Positions 18,682 through 28,873 of a stretch of DNA of 40,472 nucleotides are shown piece by piece (positions within the stretch are counted from its first letter, which is position 1; every line of letters starts with the position of its first letter). The notes beneath the pieces were generated by a model. That model saw only the letters and a program-made list of their open reading frames with translations, made no database searches and was not told the DNA's origin. The DNA is taken from positions 1-40,472 of IMG/VR virus record IMGVR_UViG_3300029309_000093; one strand, given 5' to 3'. Source of the stretch: a virus. The translations under genes and the position numbers were made by a program.

Positions 18682-20268
18682 TTACGGAAAGCTTTTCATA
18701 ACTTCCGATTCTACAGCAAATAATTCAGTTGCTGTTGTGTTAGCATTTTCAAGTGTGATTGTCATTTCATGACCTAAAATTCCTACGTCCTCTGCCTCTG
18801 TATTTCTTAATCCTAATATAAAAGGAGTGGACTCACCTATAATTACATTTTGTGTAAAGTTAGTGTTAACAAATATTCTATTTATACCACTTACTAAGTT
18901 AACTTCTATATTGGTTATTTGACCACTAAAATTTATAGTGGTGTAAGCTCCTTCAGAAAAATAAATATAATCACCAATACTTAACATACTTATATCCGTT
19001 ATAGGGTTGACTGAAAAATTTAATGTAAGAACATTGTTAGTTTCAGACCAAGAGGTTGCCTTACCAATTCCTTGTGCCGATCTATATGCGTATTCTCCTG
19101 GAATTGCCGGTGTTGTTCCCGTCTTTCTAATGTAAGCAAAATATGCACCCTCTTTCTTTTCAAACCACCTAAAGTCTACAAACCCTCTAGTCTGTATATC
19201 TGATTCCATAGTTACAGTCCAAGCAGAATCAGATTCTAAATTTAATGATTTAAAAATTTTATTTTCTAAAGGATTTTGATTGAAAACTGTAGTAATTTGT
19301 GAATTAAATTGTTCACCATAATAATTGTTTCTAGTCTCATTAGTGTTGTGTCTGTACAAATTACCGCCCTTGAAAGAATATAAATAGTTATTCATACCTA
19401 TCATCAAATCAGGATTGTAAGAATAAAAAGACGGCCATCCTTTTACACTTTCGCTATAAGACAAGGTATAATTAGTTGTTATAGGTGATGGTATAGGCGG
19501 AACAGTGCTAGGCGTTGGAGGTGTGGGAGGTGTAGGGGCTGGCGGTGTAGGGCTAGGAGAACTACATTCATTACTATTGTAAACTAAATTGTTTTGCCCA
19601 CCCATGTATCCGTGATAAAAACATTCATAACTAATTGTTCCATATCCACCTACAACAGTTATTGTCACGTCTCCCCAATAATATTCGTAAGTATTTCCAT
19701 CAAGTCCAGTTTTGATACCAGCTAGATTTGTTCCAGTATAAGTAATTACATTAGTCAGATTATAATTATGAAATGCAATAGGATGCGCCGCAGGTATATC
19801 TTTCAAAACATATATACCAACGTTTGTTGCAAAAGGTTGAAAATATATTCCGTTAAATTTAAATACATTTACACCGTTGACTACACCAAAACTAACCGTG
19901 TTTTCTCCTTGTAAACAAGAAACTGTCCCTGGAGTTGGAGCTGGTGTAGGAGGACTCGGAGGCTGTGGAGGCGTTGGAGGCTGTGGAGGCGTTGGTATAG
20001 GGCTTGAGTTTTGATCTCCACATTGAGTTGAACAACTAGTGTCGATAGGCCCTTCAAAGTAACCATCAGTTGAAACTAAATTTATATAACCTGCACCTGA
20101 CAATTGTCCGTAATGTCCAGATGTGTCAAGACATACCTTAATTAATTGATTTGGCTGTATCGTAACTTCATCCAATCCAACTAAATCTGTTGCACAACAC
20201 CCTATTTGCCAAGTACACGGTTGATTAGCATCAAGTGGACAAATTAACTGATAAGTTTTACAGGACAT
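18682..20268 (-). CDS. Pro-linker tail/fibre protein with cupredoxin-like domain (528 aa)
   Basis: A modular 528-residue protein. Residues 1-88 are a Cys-rich N-terminal domain (ten Cys). A Pro/Thr/Gln linker (about 90-114) leads to a domain at 115-235 with the ligand pattern of a type 1 copper site: H162, then C216-x2-H219-x2-M222 in YECFYHGYMGG. A second Pro/Thr linker (238-262) leads to a strand-rich C-terminal domain ending the protein. The linkers resemble those in the 2220-residue tail protein nearby, and a hydroxylase and a glycosyltransferase lie between the two genes. Probably an exposed tail or fibre component; binding of copper is inferred from motif only. Confidence 0.65.
   Translation of the reverse strand: MSCKTYQLICPLDANQPCTWQIGCCATDLVGLDEVTIQPNQLIKVCLDTSGHYGQLSGAGYINLVSTDGYFEGPIDTSCSTQCGDQNSSPIPTPPQPPTPPQPPSPPTPAPTPGTVSCLQGENTVSFGVVNGVNVFKFNGIYFQPFATNVGIYVLKDIPAAHPIAFHNYNLTNVITYTGTNLAGIKTGLDGNTYEYYWGDVTITVVGGYGTISYECFYHGYMGGQNNLVYNSNECSSPSPTPPAPTPPTPPTPSTVPPIPSPITTNYTLSYSESVKGWPSFYSYNPDLMIGMNNYLYSFKGGNLYRHNTNETRNNYYGEQFNSQITTVFNQNPLENKIFKSLNLESDSAWTVTMESDIQTRGFVDFRWFEKKEGAYFAYIRKTGTTPAIPGEYAYRSAQGIGKATSWSETNNVLTLNFSVNPITDISMLSIGDYIYFSEGAYTTINFSGQITNIEVNLVSGINRIFVNTNFTQNVIIGESTPFILGLRNTEAEDVGILGHEMTITLENANTTATELFAVESEVMKSFP
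19564..19926 (-). other. cupredoxin-like domain within tail protein
   Basis: Encodes residues 115-235. The HPIAF strand supplies a His, and the C-x2-H-x2-M motif near the end supplies Cys, His and Met, in the order of type 1 copper proteins. Similar H-P-F and Y-Y-C-x2-H-x2-M-G-G patterns recur in virion proteins of marine phages, as I recall them; metal occupancy is not shown. Confidence 0.55.
19958..19993 (-). repeat. perfect 18-bp tandem duplication in Pro-linker
   Basis: GGAGGCTGTGGAGGCGTT (plus-strand reading) occurs twice back to back without mismatch, encoding two six-residue units of Pro, Thr and Gln in the first linker. It is a likely site of length variation by slippage. Confidence 0.85.
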
Positions 20269-20284
20269 ACAAATAAATTATGTA

Positions 20285-20292
20285 CAAATTTA
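20285..20292 (-). promoter_or_regulatory. putative -7 box (TAAATTTG)
   Basis: Minus-strand TAAATTTG lies 16 bases before the ATG of the cupredoxin-domain tail gene, in the 40-base gap after the glycosyltransferase gene. Fits TAnnTTTG; chance match possible. Confidence 0.3.
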
Positions 20293-20308
20293 CAAAAATT
20301 TATTGGTG

Positions 20309-20932
20309 CTAATTAAAAAACCCCCATGTACCTGTTTGATGGTGTTTAGTAAATCTTATTTCTTTTGAGTTATTAAACAAATCAGCTGGTAATATTTCTA
20401 TTGAGTCATAATAATTTGTTTGAATAAATTCAGATAACGCTATAGGACCAACAGTTTTTCGCACTATAAAACCTGGTATATGCTCTTCAATATTAGGATA
20501 CTTAGAAACATTATCTATGTTACTTATAATGTTTTGTCTACAATACAAAAGATAGTCGCTCCAAAAATTATTTGGAGGTGATATCATCAAACTATTTTGA
20601 ACAAATTCATCATCACTGCTAGCACCTATTATGTATATTTTATTTTTATTTAGTTGATGTAAAAAGGGAGATATTAATTCAACATCCATGTCAGCATATA
20701 CACCTCCTATATTTTCAAGTATTACATATCTTACGTAGTCAAGTTTAAAAATTTTGTGAAGCTTATCTAAAATTTTAAAAAACTCTAAATCATAACACTT
20801 TAAATAATCGTCTATTTCTTGATCGTTCCAAATCTTCACAACACAGGTATATTTTTTCCATGATTTTAAACATTTGTTCCATAACACAGGCCATTTGTTT
20901 TTGTCTTCTGGGGCTAAAAAATGGACAATCAT
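20309..20932 (-). CDS. GT32-type glycosyltransferase (Gly_transf_sug, DXD)
   Basis: A 207-residue glycosyltransferase of the Och1/capsular-polysaccharide DXD type. The core block K63-L-D65-Y-V-R68 then YVILENIGGVYADMDVE carries the Arg and the metal/nucleotide-sugar D81-M-D83 motif characteristic of Gly_transf_sug. A C-terminal GPIALSEF segment (after residue 160) and HHQTGTWGFF end match the acceptor side of this family. It would transfer a sugar from a nucleotide-sugar; the acceptor is unknown. The start overlaps the hydroxylase-like stop by 4 bases, so the two are probably co-translated. Lying among tail genes, it may glycosylate tail proteins (inference) rather than DNA. Confidence 0.85.
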   Translation of the reverse strand: MIVHFLAPEDKNKWPVLWNKCLKSWKKYTCVVKIWNDQEIDDYLKCYDLEFFKILDKLHKIFKLDYVRYVILENIGGVYADMDVELISPFLHQLNKNKIYIIGASSDDEFVQNSLMISPPNNFWSDYLLYCRQNIISNIDNVSKYPNIEEHIPGFIVRKTVGPIALSEFIQTNYYDSIEILPADLFNNSKEIRFTKHHQTGTWGFFN

Positions 20933-22176
20933 ACAAGCTTATAATGCACGTAAAAGTTTCTAAAATATTTTCCACCGAACATTTCTTTTCTTGCATGCTT
21001 ACATATTGCTGATTCATACAGTATCATATCGCCTGGTTGTGCATAAACTTTATACCACTCACCATCATGTCCTTGAATATCTAACGGCCAATCATCAGCG
21101 TATTTTTTATTTTGACATCCACAAGTTAAATCTTTATCAACAATAATAATTGATGATATGTGATGTGTTTGCACCCTATCAACATGTTCTTTAAGACTTG
21201 AACCTTTTTCGTATGATCTAATGCCATATATGAAAGATGGTTCTAATTTTCTGCCACAAAAATCTTCGTGAGTCTTTTGCAATTCTTTATGTAGTATTTT
21301 TTTTACAGAAGGTATATTGTCAAAACTTAAAAGTTTTGTATCTCCAGGTACGTAAGTATCTTTTCCATCAAAGCTTTCAACAGTTTCTTTATCTTTAATT
21401 AAATTATAACAATCCAAAATTAAATTCCACATATCTTCAGGACATTTAGTCAACTCAAAACCATTTTCAGTAAGTTGAGGTATTGGTTGATTTGCTTCTA
21501 CAGTTTGTGTTGCCTTTACAATTCTACTCTCCATAACAGGCTCTTTTTTTTGAACCACCGCAGTTTCATAAGGCACAGGTTGTAGTTTTTTATACTCCTC
21601 ATATTTATTCAAATCACCAACACCATCCCATTTGTTTTCTCTCCACCAAGATGTTACAATATATTTTTTTCCAGATTTTACTGACACCCCTTCATGTAAT
21701 GTATCTGTAAGGGTAATTCCATTATCCATATTTTTCCACCATACAGCCTTACCCTTAACAGGTTTTACTAATTTATTTAAATTAGGAAAATTTGTTTCGC
21801 CACCTTCATAATCATCATTAAGATATACCATTAGAGTGTGTGTTCTATTTCCTGAAGCTCTACAGTGCATATTGTAAGCAGGACCAGTAAAAAAATCATT
21901 ATGTGGTCTAAAGTATTGACCAGGTTCATATAGCTGGCCTTGAAGCGATTCTCCTTTTTCTATAGGTAATTTTAAATAATCTGATATTTTTTGATGAACG
22001 TTTTTTATTACATCAACATTCGGGTCTAAATTGCTTGTTGAAGATGTTCTATGATTTGTTATATCTGACCTGTCTGTGCCTCCCACTACAACAGAAGAAC
22101 GTGAGTGGTTTGCATCTATTAATTTAATTATTTCATCACACTGTTCGTGCGATAAGAAATTAGGAATTTCATGCAT
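20929..22176 (-). CDS. tandem 2-oxoglutarate/Fe(II) prolyl-4-hydroxylase-like dioxygenase
   Basis: A 415-residue protein with two double-stranded beta-helix dioxygenase domains. Domain 1 (about 1-180) has the prolyl-4-hydroxylase pattern: RPHNDFF with iron ligands H92 and D94, a YLNDDYEGGET segment, the distal iron His H161 (TLHEGVSV) and K171 ten residues later for 2-oxoglutarate. Domain 2 (about 240-415) has H331-V-D333, distal H394 in ICKHAR, a PGDMILYE strand before it, and K403/R406 for the co-substrate. A Pro-containing linker joins them. Both sets of catalytic residues look intact. The enzyme may hydroxylate prolines in the Pro/Thr linkers of the flanking tail proteins (inference from context). 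Confidence 0.85.
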   Translation of the reverse strand: MHEIPNFLSHEQCDEIIKLIDANHSRSSVVVGGTDRSDITNHRTSSTSNLDPNVDVIKNVHQKISDYLKLPIEKGESLQGQLYEPGQYFRPHNDFFTGPAYNMHCRASGNRTHTLMVYLNDDYEGGETNFPNLNKLVKPVKGKAVWWKNMDNGITLTDTLHEGVSVKSGKKYIVTSWWRENKWDGVGDLNKYEEYKKLQPVPYETAVVQKKEPVMESRIVKATQTVEANQPIPQLTENGFELTKCPEDMWNLILDCYNLIKDKETVESFDGKDTYVPGDTKLLSFDNIPSVKKILHKELQKTHEDFCGRKLEPSFIYGIRSYEKGSSLKEHVDRVQTHHISSIIIVDKDLTCGCQNKKYADDWPLDIQGHDGEWYKVYAQPGDMILYESAICKHARKEMFGGKYFRNFYVHYKLV

Positions 22177-22210
22177 TTGATTTAATTTGATTTATATAAA
22201 GGTATTAAAA

Positions 22211-25200
22211 TTATTGTTGCTGACAAAGTAGACAAGGACCAAATTGACCATTAGACCATTGTCTATAATATGAGCCGTTAGCTACATAAGTGTCCGCAAC
22301 AGAAGTACCACAATTAGAGTCAGTTCTAAAAAAGTTAGATGCTTGACAGAAAGATGAATTGTTAAAGTACATTGTTTCAGAACGAAATGGATTACAAGCT
22401 AACGTAGCAGAATTTCCAGTTGATATATTGTTTATAGCAAAACAAGTTGGCGCTGGCGGACTCGGAGGTGGCGGCGTTGGTGTAGTTCCTTGACATAAAG
22501 AACATGAAGCAAAATCATCATAGTTTGAATATAAAGGACCAGTGCTACCTCCAAGAGTTGAATATTCATAACAAATACCAGATATCTTTAATACATTAGG
22601 GAAACTTGTTCCAGAAGGCCCACTTACATAAGCAACAACGTCACCTCCATCACAAGCTAAATACTGACCATAAATTATAGGCGGCGTAGGAGGCGTTGGA
22701 GGTGTTGGAGTCGGCGGAGGGGTAAAGTTACCACAAGAACCTTGAATTGCTGTTGTAGTTACGTTATACGTAGAACTTGCAACATCAATTGCGATAATTT
22801 CCCAATATTTTGAATCATCAGGTCCACCTGACAATGTAACTGCTAAACCTACGGCAAAGCCAGATCCATTTGTTATATGAACATTGTATTCAGTTCCGCT
22901 TGATTGATAACATTCTCTTATAGTCACTCTCTGAGAAGTTGGAGGTACTGGAGGAACTGGTGGTGGTGCAGGTGTTATAGGTGGACATCCTGTACTTGTT
23001 CCAACTGCTATTATGTTGCTTCCTAATATACGATCTGACGTTGTTTCTAGACCAGCAGTTCCGTTATAACGATAATAATCATAATCATCACCACTACCAG
23101 AACCAGATGAACCGTCTACATATCTTTGACTATTTTGTGGAGCTTGACTTAAAAATTTATATCCCCCTTGAGGAGATGTTCCATCAGCTCTGGGACATCC
23201 AACTAAGAAATAATAAAGACCCGATGGTGTTGACGGTGGTAAAGTAGGCCAATCAGAACAATCTTCTACTATAGCCACATAAGCTAATGTGACTAGGTGA
23301 TTGGATGTACCAACAGCAGTAATTTTATAATTAGCATCACCATCAAATACTGGATATGAGGATACTGGTTGTCCATAATTACCATTTAATCTTAATGAAG
23401 CATTGACGATAAAATCTGACACAGTAATAGAACCGCTTGAAGGTATATTGTTAATTCTAATAATATAAGATGGTCCTGTACCATCACACAATTGTATTGT
23501 AAAGTTTTCATTAGAGAAGCCTGTTCCTCCTCCTCCATCATCATCATCTCCAACACAAGCATCACAGTTATTAAAAGTGTCTGTAGTAACATCGACACTA
23601 GATGTAGTGCTTGTGCTTGCTGAGTAACTATAACATGTTCCGTTATACTTAATTACATTAGGGAACGGAGTAGTTTCTATTATTCTAAATATTTGTGTTA
23701 AAAGATTATCTTCACAGCCTAAATAAGTTGCATATACGTATGTAGGCGCAATTGTTGTTGTCGTTTCTGTTGAGCCAACTCCTATACCATGCTCATTTAT
23801 TGCGTAAGCAGTTACATAATATGTAGTGCTTTGCGATGCACCTCCAAAGTAGTAGGAGTAAGATCCTGTTGATGTACCACCCTGTATATATTTTGTATTA
23901 TTTAAATATGAAGAATCTGTTCCTATGTAAAAACCTCTTTCAGTAACAGTTCCATTTGCGGTATCAAGGCTACCATTTGCTGTAAAAGCATTGTAAGCAA
24001 TATTCGTAGATGAATTTGTAGTCATAGCTGGCGCATTGCTTGGTGTTGGTGTAGGTGTAGGCGCTGCCGCAATACAAGTAGGGCAATCAGTAAATTCATC
24101 CGATCCTGTTGGTATGTCAAGAGATGAAAGCACTGATACTGTTGTTGGACTTGAATAACATACATTTTGAAATCTTACTACCGCAGGGAAAGTATATCCA
24201 ACAGCTGCTCTGAAAACAACAGTGTTAGGACCTTGACACTCGGTATATCTTTTGAAATCAAATGATGGCGTTGGCGTTGGTGTAGGCACGCTAGCATTTC
24301 TATAATCATAAATAAGATATAAATGATTTTCAGGTGTTGTAGGAGTAGGCACTGTAAAACTTCCGGTATAAAGTTCAGGAGCTTTTAAATTGTTAATTGG
24401 AATTGTAGTTTCTAAACCTAGGAGGGTAGTAATATCAGACTCTGTGTTTGAATATATTTGGTTGCTTCTTACAAAACCTAATGAATTATTTGCAGTATCA
24501 AATATAAAATCATCAAATTTAATTTTATTTACACCTAAAGTCATAACAGAACCGTTAGTTGGAATACTTCCAACACCTTGGTCACCAACTATTTTTTTAA
24601 ATTGTGATATAACAAAAGACCCTGTTCCAGTTCCAAAAGGAACTAAATCAGACTGTGTGGAGGATACTAAATATCCATCAGACCAGCTTAGTTCGTTGTG
24701 AATAAATTTACCTGCATCGATAGCGCTTGTTACACAGACGCTATAAACATTTAATAGTGTACCGGATGGACATTCCACCGTTATTTCTATTGTATCATCT
24801 ACAGTTGCATTAGAGGTTAAAGTAATTAAAACTAAATCATCAGTGCTTACATTTTTTTCAAAAGTAAATGTACCGCTTGTATACACCACTCCGGTGGTTG
24901 TAACGTTATTGTTGTAAGTAGCAGATATTGTATACCCTACTACACCTATGCCTCCTTCTGTCGTAATATCATCTCCCCCTTCAGTAATAATATCTTGCGA
25001 TGTAGCTTCAGTAATTATAGGTTGAGGTCCTTCATTTGGAATTTCATATCTAACAAGAACTGTTCCTTCTTGAGGCTCTAAGTCTACACAGTAAAGTATT
25101 TCTTTACCAGCCGGTATTGTAACATCTCTGGAAACTCCACAAGCAGTACATTTAGCTACCTCGGGTTTTAAAACAGTGTTTGAAGTTAAAACATACTCAT

Positions 25201-28200
25201 TCATATAAGGATCGTAAGCTCCAAGCTTTTGAGTAGTAAAAGATTTAGTAAATAAATCTCTAAAAAAGCTTCTCATTCCTGCCTCCGATATAACCTCTAA
25301 CCTTTCATTTTGAGCAGAACTTCCAATTAAATGAATAACAGCGCTTCTTTTTCCATCAGTAAAGTATTTACTTTCTCCCCATACGGCAAAACTTTCTGGA
25401 TTGTTACTTATTCCGTAATTTTCTATTCTTGCTATTTGTTTACCTAAAACAGAAGGCACAGCTGTTAGTTGTCCTCCACCAGTTGCGTCGGTTAGTAAAT
25501 CTTTACCAGCTAAAACATAAGATATTTTATCCTCTTGTAAAACTAATATATCATCCTTTCTAGCAAATAATATTTCTACATCTCCGAAAGTTTCTTCAAG
25601 TGCTTTAAAGTTTGCAAGTCCTAAATTAAATTCGTTTAGTTTATTTACATTAGTTTCATCATTAAAAACGCCACTATATGTTAAATCAGCAAATCTATGA
25701 GCTTGTTGAAAAGTAGTATTATTAGTTGTAAAAGTTCTGTTACCTAAATTAAACTGTTTTCCTACAGAGGAATCTTGAATCTTATAACTTTCTACTCCAT
25801 TTCCAAATGTAAAACAATTTGAAAAATTTAAACTTACAGTTGCCGCTACTTCTTGAGCTATGTTTTGATTTACTACATTTCCAGAATGTTGACCTATGCT
25901 GTCAATACTAAATGATTGTGATCCTTCATACCATAAATCAGGCAGTGCATCCACTGGTTTGGTTTCAAATATTACCTCAGCTTCTCTTCTAAAAACAGTA
26001 ATGTTTACAGTAACCCTCGATCTTTTTGCTGTGCTATTACCACAACATCTAGTACCTGAAACCATTAAATAATAATTATTTGTTGCAGTGTCTTTATATA
26101 GTCTGTAGTAATTATTATCAGTTAAATCACCTTCTGATGAAGGACTATCTGTATCGCCTCCAAAAACTGTTGATGCTGAAAGGTCATTAAAACTTCCATT
26201 TGGTATTGATGTTTTAGCACCTGCCGTAGATGCCACTGAGTTTATAAAAATATTACCAACTGGATTATTACCACTAAATGCAACTTCAGGGAAAACTATA
26301 GCATTATTTTCAATAACACCTTCAAAATTTTCACCTTGCACAAATTCTTCCCAGTTTGAATAAGTATCACTACAAATAAATGTGTGGTCTAAAATACTTG
26401 TCCTTCTTTCACACGCACCAACACCAGATCCAACTCCTTGTCTATTTTGATCTACAGTAATTCTTACTTCTGAACCTGCGGGTAAATCATAATTACCATT
26501 TGTTAAACCTGGAATAGTGTCATCAAACAATGGGTAAGCAACCATTGGGTATCTATTAGTGTCACTAGCCACTAATGTATCAACCTTAACATCAATAATA
26601 TTACCTACGGTTGATTCAGCTGCAAAATTTATATTATTAAGCTTCATGTATGTACCTCCAGGCACGGGAATATCATTACCACCAGAGTCTTTTGGATCAA
26701 TAAAGTCGGCAGATTGAACAGAAATATCTAACACTTGAGTAGTTGTACAGTTTCTTAAAGGACCAGAAGCATCTCTTTTTACTATTAAATCATCTCCTAT
26801 GTTTACTTTTTTTATATTATCACCTTGTAACAAAAAGAAAACTTCATTGGAGTTGGGGTCTTGAAAATATAAGGAGGTATAAATAGTGTCATAGGTATCT
26901 TTATCTGCTTTTATACAAAACTTATATCTGGTAGCAAAACTGGGCGCTCTTTGACTTGCTGGTATACTTACGTTTATTGTATTCTTAGTCGCAGATGTTG
27001 AGCAAGGAAAATTAACAGTATTCAGTTTACTTACTAACGCCGTAGATGCTCTGTTAAAAGAATCCATGTAAATTATACCAACTTCATATCCCCTATTACT
27101 GTGTAAGCTAGATGTGTTTCCAATTCTTCTGATTGAAACATTTGCAGATGTGAATTTGTAATATTCTATAAAAGTATTAGAACCTCCATTCTCTAAATAT
27201 TGAGCTGCTAATATTTGTATTGTTAAAGCATTAGTATTAGTTGTGTCTTGTAATATAAGTAAAGGTTCTCCTTTACTGGGTAAAGCAGCTGTGGCATTTG
27301 TTATACCTGTTTGTTGCAAATCATAAGTGGGTGTGGTAAGCGTTGATGATAAACTGTTATTAAATAAATCTGTTAATGTAATTCCTGTACCCGCCTGAGC
27401 ATTAGCAACAGTTTGAATATCTGCTTGTATTGATCCCAATTTTGCCTTGAAATCAGCTGAAGCAATTAAATCACCTAATGGGTCACTTGAAGCTGTAAAA
27501 TCTTGAGACAAAATATAAGTAAATCCGATGCTTGTACTAGGTGTTGTTCCTGTTGTGGTTGGACTACCAAAAAATTGACTGTGAATAAATGTAAAATCTA
27601 TACTAATTTGTGCTCCTACAACAAAATCACTTGTTAAATTATTAAAATCTAAAATTAATTTAGTGTCGGCAATATCTCTACTATCACCAAAAGCTTCATA
27701 TCTTATCCCCTGGTCTATAGTAATAGGAACAATACTTTCTCCTAATCCTTCACTAGCACCAGTAGCCACGAAATCAAGATTAACTTTTTTGTTTTGAACA
27801 TCAACTAAATCATAACCCTCAACATAATTACCATAAACCAATCTATTAGCCATCAAAGTTTGAGCTTTAGCTAATGTAGGAACATTGTCAAATAATCTTA
27901 ATATTTCTGCTTCTGGTAAAATAGAAAATATTTGAGCTGCATCAAAAGTAATTTGTTCATTTGAGCTATTATCTGGTATTGAATTTTGCGCTTTGTCTAA
28001 TCTCTGTATAACTTTAATTGTAGGGTCATTTGCCTCTTTAAATAATATGTCTATACCCTTGACAAGTTTACCACCAGAATTATATCTAACTATGGCTGCA
28101 TTAAATGAATTAAGCATCCCATTATTAGCAAAAGTAGCAGGCGAAAAAGCAAATCCACTAGGTAAAAAAGCTGGTTCACTAAATTGAGAGGGCGCTGAAT

Positions 28201-28873
28201 ATTCATCATTGCTATACTTATATCTATAAGCAAAACAAATAAAATTTTCTGTTAAGTAAGTATCTTCATTATTTGCTTTAATTAACTGAACAGTAGGAGC
28301 GCTTAAAGGTGGTTGTTTTACTACTTGTATTTCCCTTGAATCAAACTGGTCTATATTGTTTACAGGGTTTGCATAATTTCTGTTTATGTTAATAACTCTA
28401 GGAGGATTAAAATTATCTGTAAAGAATAACAAATCATCTATTTTGTCAATACCAGTAATTAAAAACTCAGGATTAAAATTTAAGGTTGTCGATTGACTAA
28501 ACCCATTATCTATACTAATTACATGATAATTGACTCCTCCGGTTTCTACATTAAAAGAAACAATAAGGTCTAACTTGCCTGTGTTTCCATTAGTAAAAGC
28601 AGGGTCATGTACAAACCAATATATTGTTGCTCTAGCACTATCATCAAATGCACCTATACATTTTGCGGAATCACTAAGTAGAACACCATTGATATAAGCT
28701 AATTGAGTTAAAATGGAATTACCTTTGGAATTTTCTACCGAACCTACTTCTGACTGTTCAGTTGACCCTAATCTAACATTCAAAGCATTAGTATATTCAC
28801 CATTAGGAATAAGCCTTTCATCAAGGCTTTTATTCATACGGCCTGCTATAAAATTTCTTTGAACGTTTGCCAT
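22211..28873 (-). CDS. giant modular tail protein (nozzle/muzzle-like N-terminus, Cys-rich receptor-type C-terminus; 2220 aa)
   Basis: The N-terminus (RNFIAGRMNKSLDERLIPNG, then NALNVRLG) resembles the start of phage tail nozzle/stabilisation proteins (T7 gp12, P22 gp10, crAss muzzle type), and roughly the first 1400 residues are strand-rich as in a beta-propeller. From about residue 1530 the protein changes: short P-T-P linkers alternate with three copies of a Cys-rich module (1541-1600, 1715-1773, 2069-2127), one fibronectin-III-like module (1614-1711) and two or three other strand-rich Cys domains; it ends in CLLCQQQ. This C-terminal part is probably displayed outward for receptor binding. 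It follows the connector-type gene by one base and precedes the hydroxylase-like gene. Confidence 0.75.
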   Translation of the reverse strand: MANVQRNFIAGRMNKSLDERLIPNGEYTNALNVRLGSTEQSEVGSVENSKGNSILTQLAYINGVLLSDSAKCIGAFDDSARATIYWFVHDPAFTNGNTGKLDLIVSFNVETGGVNYHVISIDNGFSQSTTLNFNPEFLITGIDKIDDLLFFTDNFNPPRVININRNYANPVNNIDQFDSREIQVVKQPPLSAPTVQLIKANNEDTYLTENFICFAYRYKYSNDEYSAPSQFSEPAFLPSGFAFSPATFANNGMLNSFNAAIVRYNSGGKLVKGIDILFKEANDPTIKVIQRLDKAQNSIPDNSSNEQITFDAAQIFSILPEAEILRLFDNVPTLAKAQTLMANRLVYGNYVEGYDLVDVQNKKVNLDFVATGASEGLGESIVPITIDQGIRYEAFGDSRDIADTKLILDFNNLTSDFVVGAQISIDFTFIHSQFFGSPTTTGTTPSTSIGFTYILSQDFTASSDPLGDLIASADFKAKLGSIQADIQTVANAQAGTGITLTDLFNNSLSSTLTTPTYDLQQTGITNATAALPSKGEPLLILQDTTNTNALTIQILAAQYLENGGSNTFIEYYKFTSANVSIRRIGNTSSLHSNRGYEVGIIYMDSFNRASTALVSKLNTVNFPCSTSATKNTINVSIPASQRAPSFATRYKFCIKADKDTYDTIYTSLYFQDPNSNEVFFLLQGDNIKKVNIGDDLIVKRDASGPLRNCTTTQVLDISVQSADFIDPKDSGGNDIPVPGGTYMKLNNINFAAESTVGNIIDVKVDTLVASDTNRYPMVAYPLFDDTIPGLTNGNYDLPAGSEVRITVDQNRQGVGSGVGACERRTSILDHTFICSDTYSNWEEFVQGENFEGVIENNAIVFPEVAFSGNNPVGNIFINSVASTAGAKTSIPNGSFNDLSASTVFGGDTDSPSSEGDLTDNNYYRLYKDTATNNYYLMVSGTRCCGNSTAKRSRVTVNITVFRREAEVIFETKPVDALPDLWYEGSQSFSIDSIGQHSGNVVNQNIAQEVAATVSLNFSNCFTFGNGVESYKIQDSSVGKQFNLGNRTFTTNNTTFQQAHRFADLTYSGVFNDETNVNKLNEFNLGLANFKALEETFGDVEILFARKDDILVLQEDKISYVLAGKDLLTDATGGGQLTAVPSVLGKQIARIENYGISNNPESFAVWGESKYFTDGKRSAVIHLIGSSAQNERLEVISEAGMRSFFRDLFTKSFTTQKLGAYDPYMNEYVLTSNTVLKPEVAKCTACGVSRDVTIPAGKEILYCVDLEPQEGTVLVRYEIPNEGPQPIITEATSQDIITEGGDDITTEGGIGVVGYTISATYNNNVTTTGVVYTSGTFTFEKNVSTDDLVLITLTSNATVDDTIEITVECPSGTLLNVYSVCVTSAIDAGKFIHNELSWSDGYLVSSTQSDLVPFGTGTGSFVISQFKKIVGDQGVGSIPTNGSVMTLGVNKIKFDDFIFDTANNSLGFVRSNQIYSNTESDITTLLGLETTIPINNLKAPELYTGSFTVPTPTTPENHLYLIYDYRNASVPTPTPTPSFDFKRYTECQGPNTVVFRAAVGYTFPAVVRFQNVCYSSPTTVSVLSSLDIPTGSDEFTDCPTCIAAAPTPTPTPSNAPAMTTNSSTNIAYNAFTANGSLDTANGTVTERGFYIGTDSSYLNNTKYIQGGTSTGSYSYYFGGASQSTTYYVTAYAINEHGIGVGSTETTTTIAPTYVYATYLGCEDNLLTQIFRIIETTPFPNVIKYNGTCYSYSASTSTTSSVDVTTDTFNNCDACVGDDDDGGGGTGFSNENFTIQLCDGTGPSYIIRINNIPSSGSITVSDFIVNASLRLNGNYGQPVSSYPVFDGDANYKITAVGTSNHLVTLAYVAIVEDCSDWPTLPPSTPSGLYYFLVGCPRADGTSPQGGYKFLSQAPQNSQRYVDGSSGSGSGDDYDYYRYNGTAGLETTSDRILGSNIIAVGTSTGCPPITPAPPPVPPVPPTSQRVTIRECYQSSGTEYNVHITNGSGFAVGLAVTLSGGPDDSKYWEIIAIDVASSTYNVTTTAIQGSCGNFTPPPTPTPPTPPTPPIIYGQYLACDGGDVVAYVSGPSGTSFPNVLKISGICYEYSTLGGSTGPLYSNYDDFASCSLCQGTTPTPPPPSPPAPTCFAINNISTGNSATLACNPFRSETMYFNNSSFCQASNFFRTDSNCGTSVADTYVANGSYYRQWSNGQFGPCLLCQQQ
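22493..22669 (-). repeat. Cys-rich tail module, copy C
   Basis: Encodes residues 2069-2127: Y-L-x-C, then a FPNVLK strand, G-I-C-Y-x-Y, and a closing C-x2-C just before a Pro/Thr linker. Same order of landmarks as copies A and B. Confidence 0.7.
23555..23731 (-). repeat. Cys-rich tail module, copy B
   Basis: Encodes residues 1715-1773: T-Y-L-G-C, FPNVIKYNGTCYSY, then F-N-N-C-D-A-C. An acidic/glycine spacer (VGDDDDGGGG) follows instead of a Pro linker. Confidence 0.7.
23741..24034 (-). other. fibronectin-III-like module in the tail protein
   Basis: Encodes residues 1614-1711. The order T-E-R-G-F-Y-I-G-T (first strands) then STTYYVTAYAINEHG is that of the FN3/Ig-like module very common in Bacteroidota surface proteins (ERGFVYG, then TTYYVRAYATN). 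Likely acquired from, or shared with, the host. Confidence 0.6.
24074..24253 (-). repeat. Cys-rich tail module, copy A
   Basis: Encodes residues 1541-1600: R-Y-T-E-C, a FPAVVRFQNVCYSS segment and a closing C-P-T-C. Flanked on both sides by P-T-P-T-P-T-P-S linkers (about 1530-1537 and 1605-1612). Confidence 0.7.

Follow-up and report, generated by a model that had tools for sequence, protein, structure and literature searches.

The question raised by this locus is whether a phage encodes the means to hydroxylate and glycosylate its own tail. The stretch of DNA analysed (40,472 nucleotides, referred to as the window) is part of a 41.6-kb viral contig from IMG/VR, and an earlier note on it had proposed that a tandem prolyl-4-hydroxylase-like (P4H) dioxygenase and a DXD-motif glycosyltransferase (GT) encoded there modify the Pro-rich linkers of the two genes on either side. 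On sequence grounds the source phage is a marine crAss-like bacteriophage. The terminase (TerL), portal, co-chaperonin and ring-type genes of the window match crAss-like families, and the gene order is common to the window, to Cellulophaga, Flavobacterium and Maribacter phages and to an uncultured podovirus from Manatee Spring; the known kin of such phages have marine Flavobacteriia as hosts. Membership in the crAss-like muzzle group is met by PF25729 (E = 4e-17), phrog_14478, TerL, portal and the conserved synteny. All window features described below lie on the minus strand.

A gene pair within a split muzzle gene

Judged from their homologies, the two linker-encoding genes correspond to the N-terminal and C-terminal portions of a single tail muzzle protein. 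The N-terminal part (22211-28873, 2220 aa; phrog_14478, E = 1e-203) consists of a conserved core of approximately residues 1-1527, which aligns with a linker-free homolog in locus L002, and a C-terminal extension (about residues 1528-2220, 22211-24292) of small Cys-bearing modules and Pro-rich linkers. The C-terminal part (18682-20268, 528 aa; PF25729 crAss_MUZ_C, E = 4.3e-17; phrog_38031, E = 8e-84) carries a linker-bearing N-terminal extension followed by the conserved muzzle C-terminal domain (residues 267-528, 18682-19470), a homolog of the C-terminal end of the muzzle that Cellulophaga phage phi40:1 encodes in a single gene. The ends of this undivided muzzle, found also in Flavobacterium phage elemoF, match both window genes, while the muzzle is split without an intervening gene in phi46:3 and with one other gene between its halves in the Manatee Spring phage. 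In the window, the P4H and GT genes occupy the split.

Among the 20 larger window proteins, only these two contain Pro-rich linkers, as the earlier note had held. The 2220-aa protein has four, namely PTPTPTPSNAP (residues 1605-1615, 24029-24061), PPITPAPPPVPPVPP (residues 1964-1978, 22940-22984), PPPTPTPPTPPTPP (residues 2052-2065, 22679-22720) and PTPPPPSPPAP (residues 2132-2142, 22448-22480), and the 528-aa protein has two, PIPTPPQPPTPPQPPSPPTPAPTP (residues 90-113, 19930-20001) and PSPTPPAPTPPTPPTPSTVPPIPSP (residues 238-262, 19483-19557). The maximum number of prolines per 20 residues reaches 10 and 13 in the two proteins, respectively, and does not exceed 5 in any other larger window protein. 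The linkers are restricted to the parts flanking the split, after about residue 1527 and before about residue 267, respectively, and these split-flanking extensions are absent from linker-free relatives that lack the P4H. Between the linkers of the longer protein, a Cys-bearing motif (Y-x2-C ... FPxV ... G-x-CY) occurs in three copies (residues 1543-1573, 1717-1748 and 2071-2102). In the structure of crAss001 (PMC10172136), the muzzle forms a hexamer at the tip of the tail, and insertions in its crass and IG2 domains make its length variable; from homology to this protein we infer that the linkers of the window phage form stalks projecting from the tail tip.

The P4H gene (20929-22176, 415 aa) and the GT gene (20309-20932, 207 aa) have the coordinates, strand and lengths initially assigned to them, and the end of the former overlaps the start of the latter in a common 4-base ATGA (20929-20932). 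The N-terminal catalytic domain of the P4H (residues 1-200, 21577-22176) matches PF13640 (E = 1.2e-16) and phrog_61 (E = 3e-30). Searches against PDB sequences retrieved the Bacillus anthracis and Chlamydomonas P4Hs, both with the single sequence (1e-27 and 2e-16) and with a profile (5iax, E = 2e-37; 2jig/3gze, E = 2e-27). For the AlphaFold prediction (pLDDT 85.6) the top fold match is 3gze, the algal enzyme in complex with (Ser-Pro)5 (TM 0.78, normalised to the target length; E = 1.9e-15). Next in order come the P4H of Bacillus, vCPH from a chlorovirus and the human C-P4H; EF-Tu-binding or -modifying P4Hs and the Rps23 hydroxylase Tpa1 are also among the structural matches. The iron triad H92, D94 and H161 and the 2-oxoglutarate residue K171 are conserved in 32 of 32 aligned homologs. 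R111 and W177 are equally invariant and correspond in the alignment to Arg161 and Trp243 of the Chlamydomonas enzyme, residues with presumed roles towards the substrate. By sequence, this domain is closest to peptidyl prolyl 4-hydroxylases; prolyl hydroxylation itself is inferred.

The C-terminal half (residues 226-415, 20929-21501) is, according to its predicted double-stranded beta-helix (pLDDT mostly above 84 in the domain) and residue counts, another 2-oxoglutarate (2OG) oxygenase domain with its own conserved triad: H331, H394 and R396 are present in all 32 homologs and D333 in 30. It matches phrog_2954 and has no match among PDB sequences. The PHROG labels "ferrochelatase" and "DNA endonuclease" attached to families that match the P4H 2OG oxygenase domains (phrog_2954, phrog_3531, phrog_2297) look misassigned. 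Locus L117 (4988-6220) encodes a tandem P4H whose second domain lacks the HxD motif, and L125 and L159 carry the second domain without the first, so that the tandem form is not obligatory.

The GT matches Gly_transf_sug (PF04488) with 37.5 bits against a cut-off of 23, has its DXD motif within YADMDVEL and shows a weak sequence match to the Och1 mannosyltransferase 9n3s (E = 0.003). It is approximately 40% identical to the C-terminal half of a GT60-GT32 fusion in L059 and L095, and is matched neither by PF23452, the family of the plant hydroxyproline O-arabinosyltransferases (HPAT), nor by PF11397 (GT60). The low dN/dS values of the P4H (0.06-0.10 versus relatives) and of the GT (0.05 versus L007) indicate that both genes are under purifying selection.

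Hydroxylase, linkers and sugar enzymes in relatives

Muzzle loci were collected by a scan with the muzzle C-terminal domain, which does not select for P4H and gave loci of both kinds. The loci are mostly metagenomic fragments, all scan counts refer to the matches listed, and a linker was counted where 6 prolines fall within 14 residues. Among the matches listed, 79 deduplicated muzzle loci comprise 40 with P4H and linkers, none with P4H but without linkers, four with linkers but without P4H, and 35 with neither. The comparative check suggested by the earlier note thus lends support to its central idea, with linkers at 40 of 40 deduplicated muzzle loci that have the hydroxylase, the modification itself being inferred. 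A scan with the P4H sequence yielded at least about 65 tandem-enzyme relatives located between muzzle parts, all with linkers where the flanks are visible, and among the matches listed tandem P4H genes in muzzle loci are accompanied by linkers in 44 of 44 cases and by a sugar enzyme in 43 of 44. In the muzzle tree the linker-bearing phages form nearly one clade and the linkers arose about once; because of this near-single origin, the 40/35 division reflects few independent events rather than 79 independent trials, and Fisher p-values, which ignore shared ancestry, are not a true measure of significance.

Each of the four loci with linkers and no P4H (L104, L108, L156, L165) has a gene of the GT60 family, and the remainder of their contigs likewise yielded no P4H. 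Retaining glycosyltransferases without the hydroxylase, these four qualify the support for the reading of the earlier note. L104 and L108 have very long PTPTPT linkers and encode, besides GT60, a protein of 762 aa that contains a pair of GT32-like domains. They constitute a natural P4H-loss variant, and since linkers persist in them, hydroxylation is not required for having linkers. Except for the four loci with GT60, those negative for P4H contain neither muzzle linkers nor the sugar enzymes described below. In most of the P4H-negative muzzle loci L120-L168 (e.g. L121, 6879-8111) the split site is filled by a variable gene of 200-640 aa; those tested had no Pfam match, and the gene is possibly receptor-binding.

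At the position occupied by the GT in the window (the sugar slot), the muzzle tree shows 13 or more changes in the type of gene that follows the retained P4H. The slot holds a GT32-like gene alone, as in the window, or none, an HPAT-like transferase, a GT60, a GT60-GT32 fusion, an O-fucosyltransferase with a carbamoyltransferase, a radical SAM protein with a GT60, or sugar epimerases. Several occupants are thus homologs of known hydroxyproline (Hyp)- or polypeptide-directed transferases, which is in keeping with the proposed linker modification. Seven of 14 members of the HPAT-like group match PF23452 (best E = 4.3e-8); the HPAT-like GT of L227 scores 46.1 bits against a cut-off of 23.9, five records lie above the cut-off, and none of 14 control genomes gave a match. 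For the HPAT-like GT, a fold search brought up nothing more specific than generic GT-A structures (TM about 0.5), and PDB sequences gave no match. Among the matches listed, 40 newly scanned HPAT-like loci contain P4H in 39 cases and linkers in 37, some of them being contigs already present in earlier scans. GT60 genes in the slot match PF11397 with E values from 1e-14 to 1e-76; the family was met in L059, L064, L067, L087, L104 and L156. GT60 comprises Ser/Thr-directed GlcNAc-transferases acting on Ser/Thr-rich mucin domains as well as the Hyp-directed enzymes of Skp1 (PMC8724618); as it holds members of both kinds, its presence indicates protein O-glycosylation and not which acceptor is used. 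The close lineage L015-L019 as well as L083 and L084 have P4H and linkers and no GT in the slot, and no PF04488 gene was found in the contigs of the L015-L019 lineage that were examined.

Two further gene sets were observed in the slot. An O-fucosyltransferase, a carbamoyltransferase and a small PhyH-like gene travel as a group (L113, 5080-7882; L125, 4757-7912; L233, L247, L249). A radical SAM/SPASM protein lies between P4H and GT60 in L064, L067, L117, L135 and L159, which may point to an additional modification of peptide or sugar.

A scan with the second oxygenase domain also led to phages of other kinds. Among the matches listed, 60 of 62 tandem-P4H loci include a sugar enzyme, versus 7 of 31 loci with single-domain P4H-like genes; outside muzzles the corresponding counts are 17/18 and 4/27, and those for same-strand linkers 6/18 and 2/27, with one further linker case on the strand opposite to the tandem P4H in L226. 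In the siphovirus L250 the order is tape measure gene, a gene for a 1141-aa linker protein, P4H and HPAT-like GT, and in L227 and L253 tail-fibre or baseplate-type genes lie upstream of the linker gene and P4H. No long Pro linkers were found in the non-muzzle, tandem-P4H contigs L219 (63 kb), L236 (52 kb) and L223, all of which may be fragments. The tandem P4H may therefore have other substrates as well.

A general equation of phage P4H with linkers was rejected, since single-domain genes (Erwinia, Salmonella, Microcystis, cyanophages) are near linkers in only 1/16 and 1/11 cases. Synechococcus phage S-SCSM1 was considered as an independent case, having a domain-2-type oxygenase next to an O-fucosyltransferase as well as two virion tracts rich in Pro, and was set aside as uninformative because its genome contains many other 2OG oxygenases. 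One tract, 109 residues long and built mostly from Pro-Arg and Pro-Gln pairs, lies in a virion protein (L181, 23462-31273), and the other, a Pro/Thr/Ser stretch, in the central spike (L183, 6258-9017); the genome is rich in glycosyltransferases as well as 2OG oxygenases. In cyanophages, 2OG oxygenase clusters with a tryptophan halogenase were seen in L185 (8563-12426, beside tail/structural genes) and L177 (6879-10231). Degenerate-pattern scans of approximately 85,000 bacterial and archaeal species genomes, which divergent members may escape, confirmed neither a tandem P4H nor an HPAT-like GT.

Substrate and acceptor of the proposed pathway

We consider it probable that the window phage hydroxylates prolines of its linkers and attaches sugar to them, most likely on Hyp, although there are no biochemical data. 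Of the features that define a Hyp-linked glycosylation pathway, a Pro-rich acceptor protein encoded together with a P4H and a GT is present, and a Hyp-glycan in the product is inferred. In the proposed mechanism, a virion-decoration cassette would have been inserted at the split of a crAss-type tail muzzle gene. Newly synthesised muzzle halves carry extensions in which Pro/Thr-rich stalks connect small domains. Acting in the host cytoplasm, the tandem P4H would use O2, Fe(II) and 2-oxoglutarate to convert linker prolines, its inferred substrate, to 4-hydroxyproline. The adjacent GT would next add sugar to the linkers before assembly, most likely on the hydroxyproline, with both the order of the steps and the acceptor atom being inferred. 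Stiff, sugar-coated polyproline-II stalks would then be displayed at the tail tip, a display likewise inferred for this phage, and may benefit it by spacing binding domains from the tail, resisting proteases or altering surface recognition. In relatives, as the gene comparisons show, hydroxylase and linkers are kept while the sugar enzymes are swapped.

Action of the GT on hydroxyproline is the weakest step for the window: its enzyme is GT32-like and belongs to neither Hyp-directed family, which leaves the acceptor undecided between Hyp and Thr/Ser. The P4H might only hydroxylate proline and thereby stiffen the polyproline helix, while the GTs decorate Thr/Ser in the manner of mucins as a separate modification. 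Thr and some Ser are indeed present in the window linkers, some GT60 members are polypeptide alpha-GlcNAc-transferases with Ser/Thr-rich mucin domains as acceptors (PMC8724618), L104 and L108 combine GT60 and the double GT32 with Thr-Pro-rich linkers in the absence of P4H, and phages of the L017/L019 type have P4H without a GT in the slot. We nevertheless regard two unconnected modifications as unlikely, as the HPAT-like enzymes are kin to a family named for Hyp and accompany P4H in 39 of 40 loci, the long linkers of several P4H-positive loci consist of (PV)n or (AP)n and are devoid of Ser/Thr, and loci of the O-fucosyltransferase type are poor in Thr. Pro runs free of Ser/Thr extend to as many as 35 residues in P4H loci and to no more than 6 in the linker loci without P4H, a difference expected if Hyp is the acceptor where P4H is present and Thr where it is absent, the latter group comprising only four loci.

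That the enzymes act elsewhere altogether, the P4H on host EF-Tu or ribosomal proteins and the GT on host surface polysaccharide or phage DNA, appears very unlikely to us. The EF-Tu-related P4Hs and Tpa1 among the structural matches, the tandem-P4H contigs without linkers and the many phage 2OG oxygenases away from linkers would fit such substrates; however, the tandem P4H is found with linker-bearing muzzle parts in 44 of 44 cases and is encountered again next to linker genes in phages of other types, and the GT families of the relatives are protein O-glycosyltransferase families. Even less credible is the notion that the muzzle split is merely an insertion hot spot on which P4H and GT landed as unrelated accessory genes. 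It draws on the variable 200-640-aa gene without Pfam matches in the slot of P4H-negative relatives, but mere cargo is spoken against by the strong purifying selection, by the retention of P4H through at least 13 changes of the adjoining genes, by its position next to linker genes outside muzzle loci too, and by the absence of these sugar enzymes and of muzzle linkers from P4H-negative loci other than the four with GT60.

Beyond the window, we lean slightly towards extending the proposed hydroxylation and glycosylation of linkers to a mobile, modular Hyp-glycan pathway that acts on tail-tip stalks and is shared by unrelated tailed phages, in which a constant tandem P4H is combined with interchangeable first transferases, plant-like HPAT or protist-like GT60, the stalks being phage counterparts of extensins.

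Relation to known systems

A close parallel is the plant and algal pathway for Hyp-rich glycoproteins, in which P4H and HPAT/GT95 act on extensins. Shared features are the peptidyl P4H fold, acceptor stretches rich in Pro/Ser/Thr, the HPAT-family transferases of relatives and, in some of these, sugar-nucleotide epimerases. In contrast to that pathway, the presumed acceptor is a phage tail protein, the compartment would be the host cytoplasm and not the ER/Golgi, and the window GT is GT32-like. The modification of Skp1 in Dictyostelium and Toxoplasma, where a cytoplasmic P4H is followed by a GT60-family transferase, resembles the order P4H-GT60 of many relatives, but it concerns one proline in a signalling protein rather than many Pro-rich linkers, and the window has no GT60.

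Among viruses, mimivirus first hydroxylates a structural protein of its own and then adds sugar to it through the collagen lysyl hydroxylase-glucosyltransferase L230 (PMC9614988), as is proposed here for the phage. L230 differs in that it is a fused enzyme of a eukaryotic virus that modifies lysine in collagen Gly-X-Y repeats; the window does not meet these criteria, having separate overlapping genes and linkers that are not Gly-X-Y. The chlorovirus PBCV-1 has a P4H of close fold (vCPH, PDB 5c5t), for which hydroxyproline in viral proteins has been proposed (Eriksson 1999, as cited in PMC9301287). Unlike the window enzyme, vCPH has a single domain and belongs to an algal virus, and no linked GT cassette has been described for it. 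Mycobacteriophages have virion proteins that bear glycans, which we propose for the window phage as well, and we know of no hydroxylase in their system. There, capsid and tail-tube subunits are glycosylated on an acceptor other than hydroxyproline (Freeman 2023, as cited in PMC12619734). The crAss001 muzzle gp44 is a homologous tail-tip protein with length variation driven by insertions, yet the accessible part of its description mentions neither Pro-linker extensions nor inserted enzyme genes (PMC10172136). Each half of the proposed pathway is therefore precedented, by collagen hydroxylation and glucosylation in mimivirus, by the chlorovirus P4H and by virion glycosylation in mycobacteriophages. 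A phage pathway combining hydroxylation and glycosylation of tail linkers was not found in the literature searched, in agreement with the earlier note, which knew of none.

In viromes of the Baltic Sea, P4H genes rank with the most abundant auxiliary genes, and their use to viruses "remains cryptic" (PMC9301287). With the present analysis, one family of viral P4Hs gains a concrete and testable substrate and pathway. If the proposal is true, a group of 2OG oxygenases and glycosyltransferases encoded by phages would be explained as enzymes that modify the virion, and these phages would be a source of compact Hyp-glycosylating enzymes that may function in the bacterial cytoplasm. Phages would thereby gain a chemistry known from plant walls and from protist Skp1.
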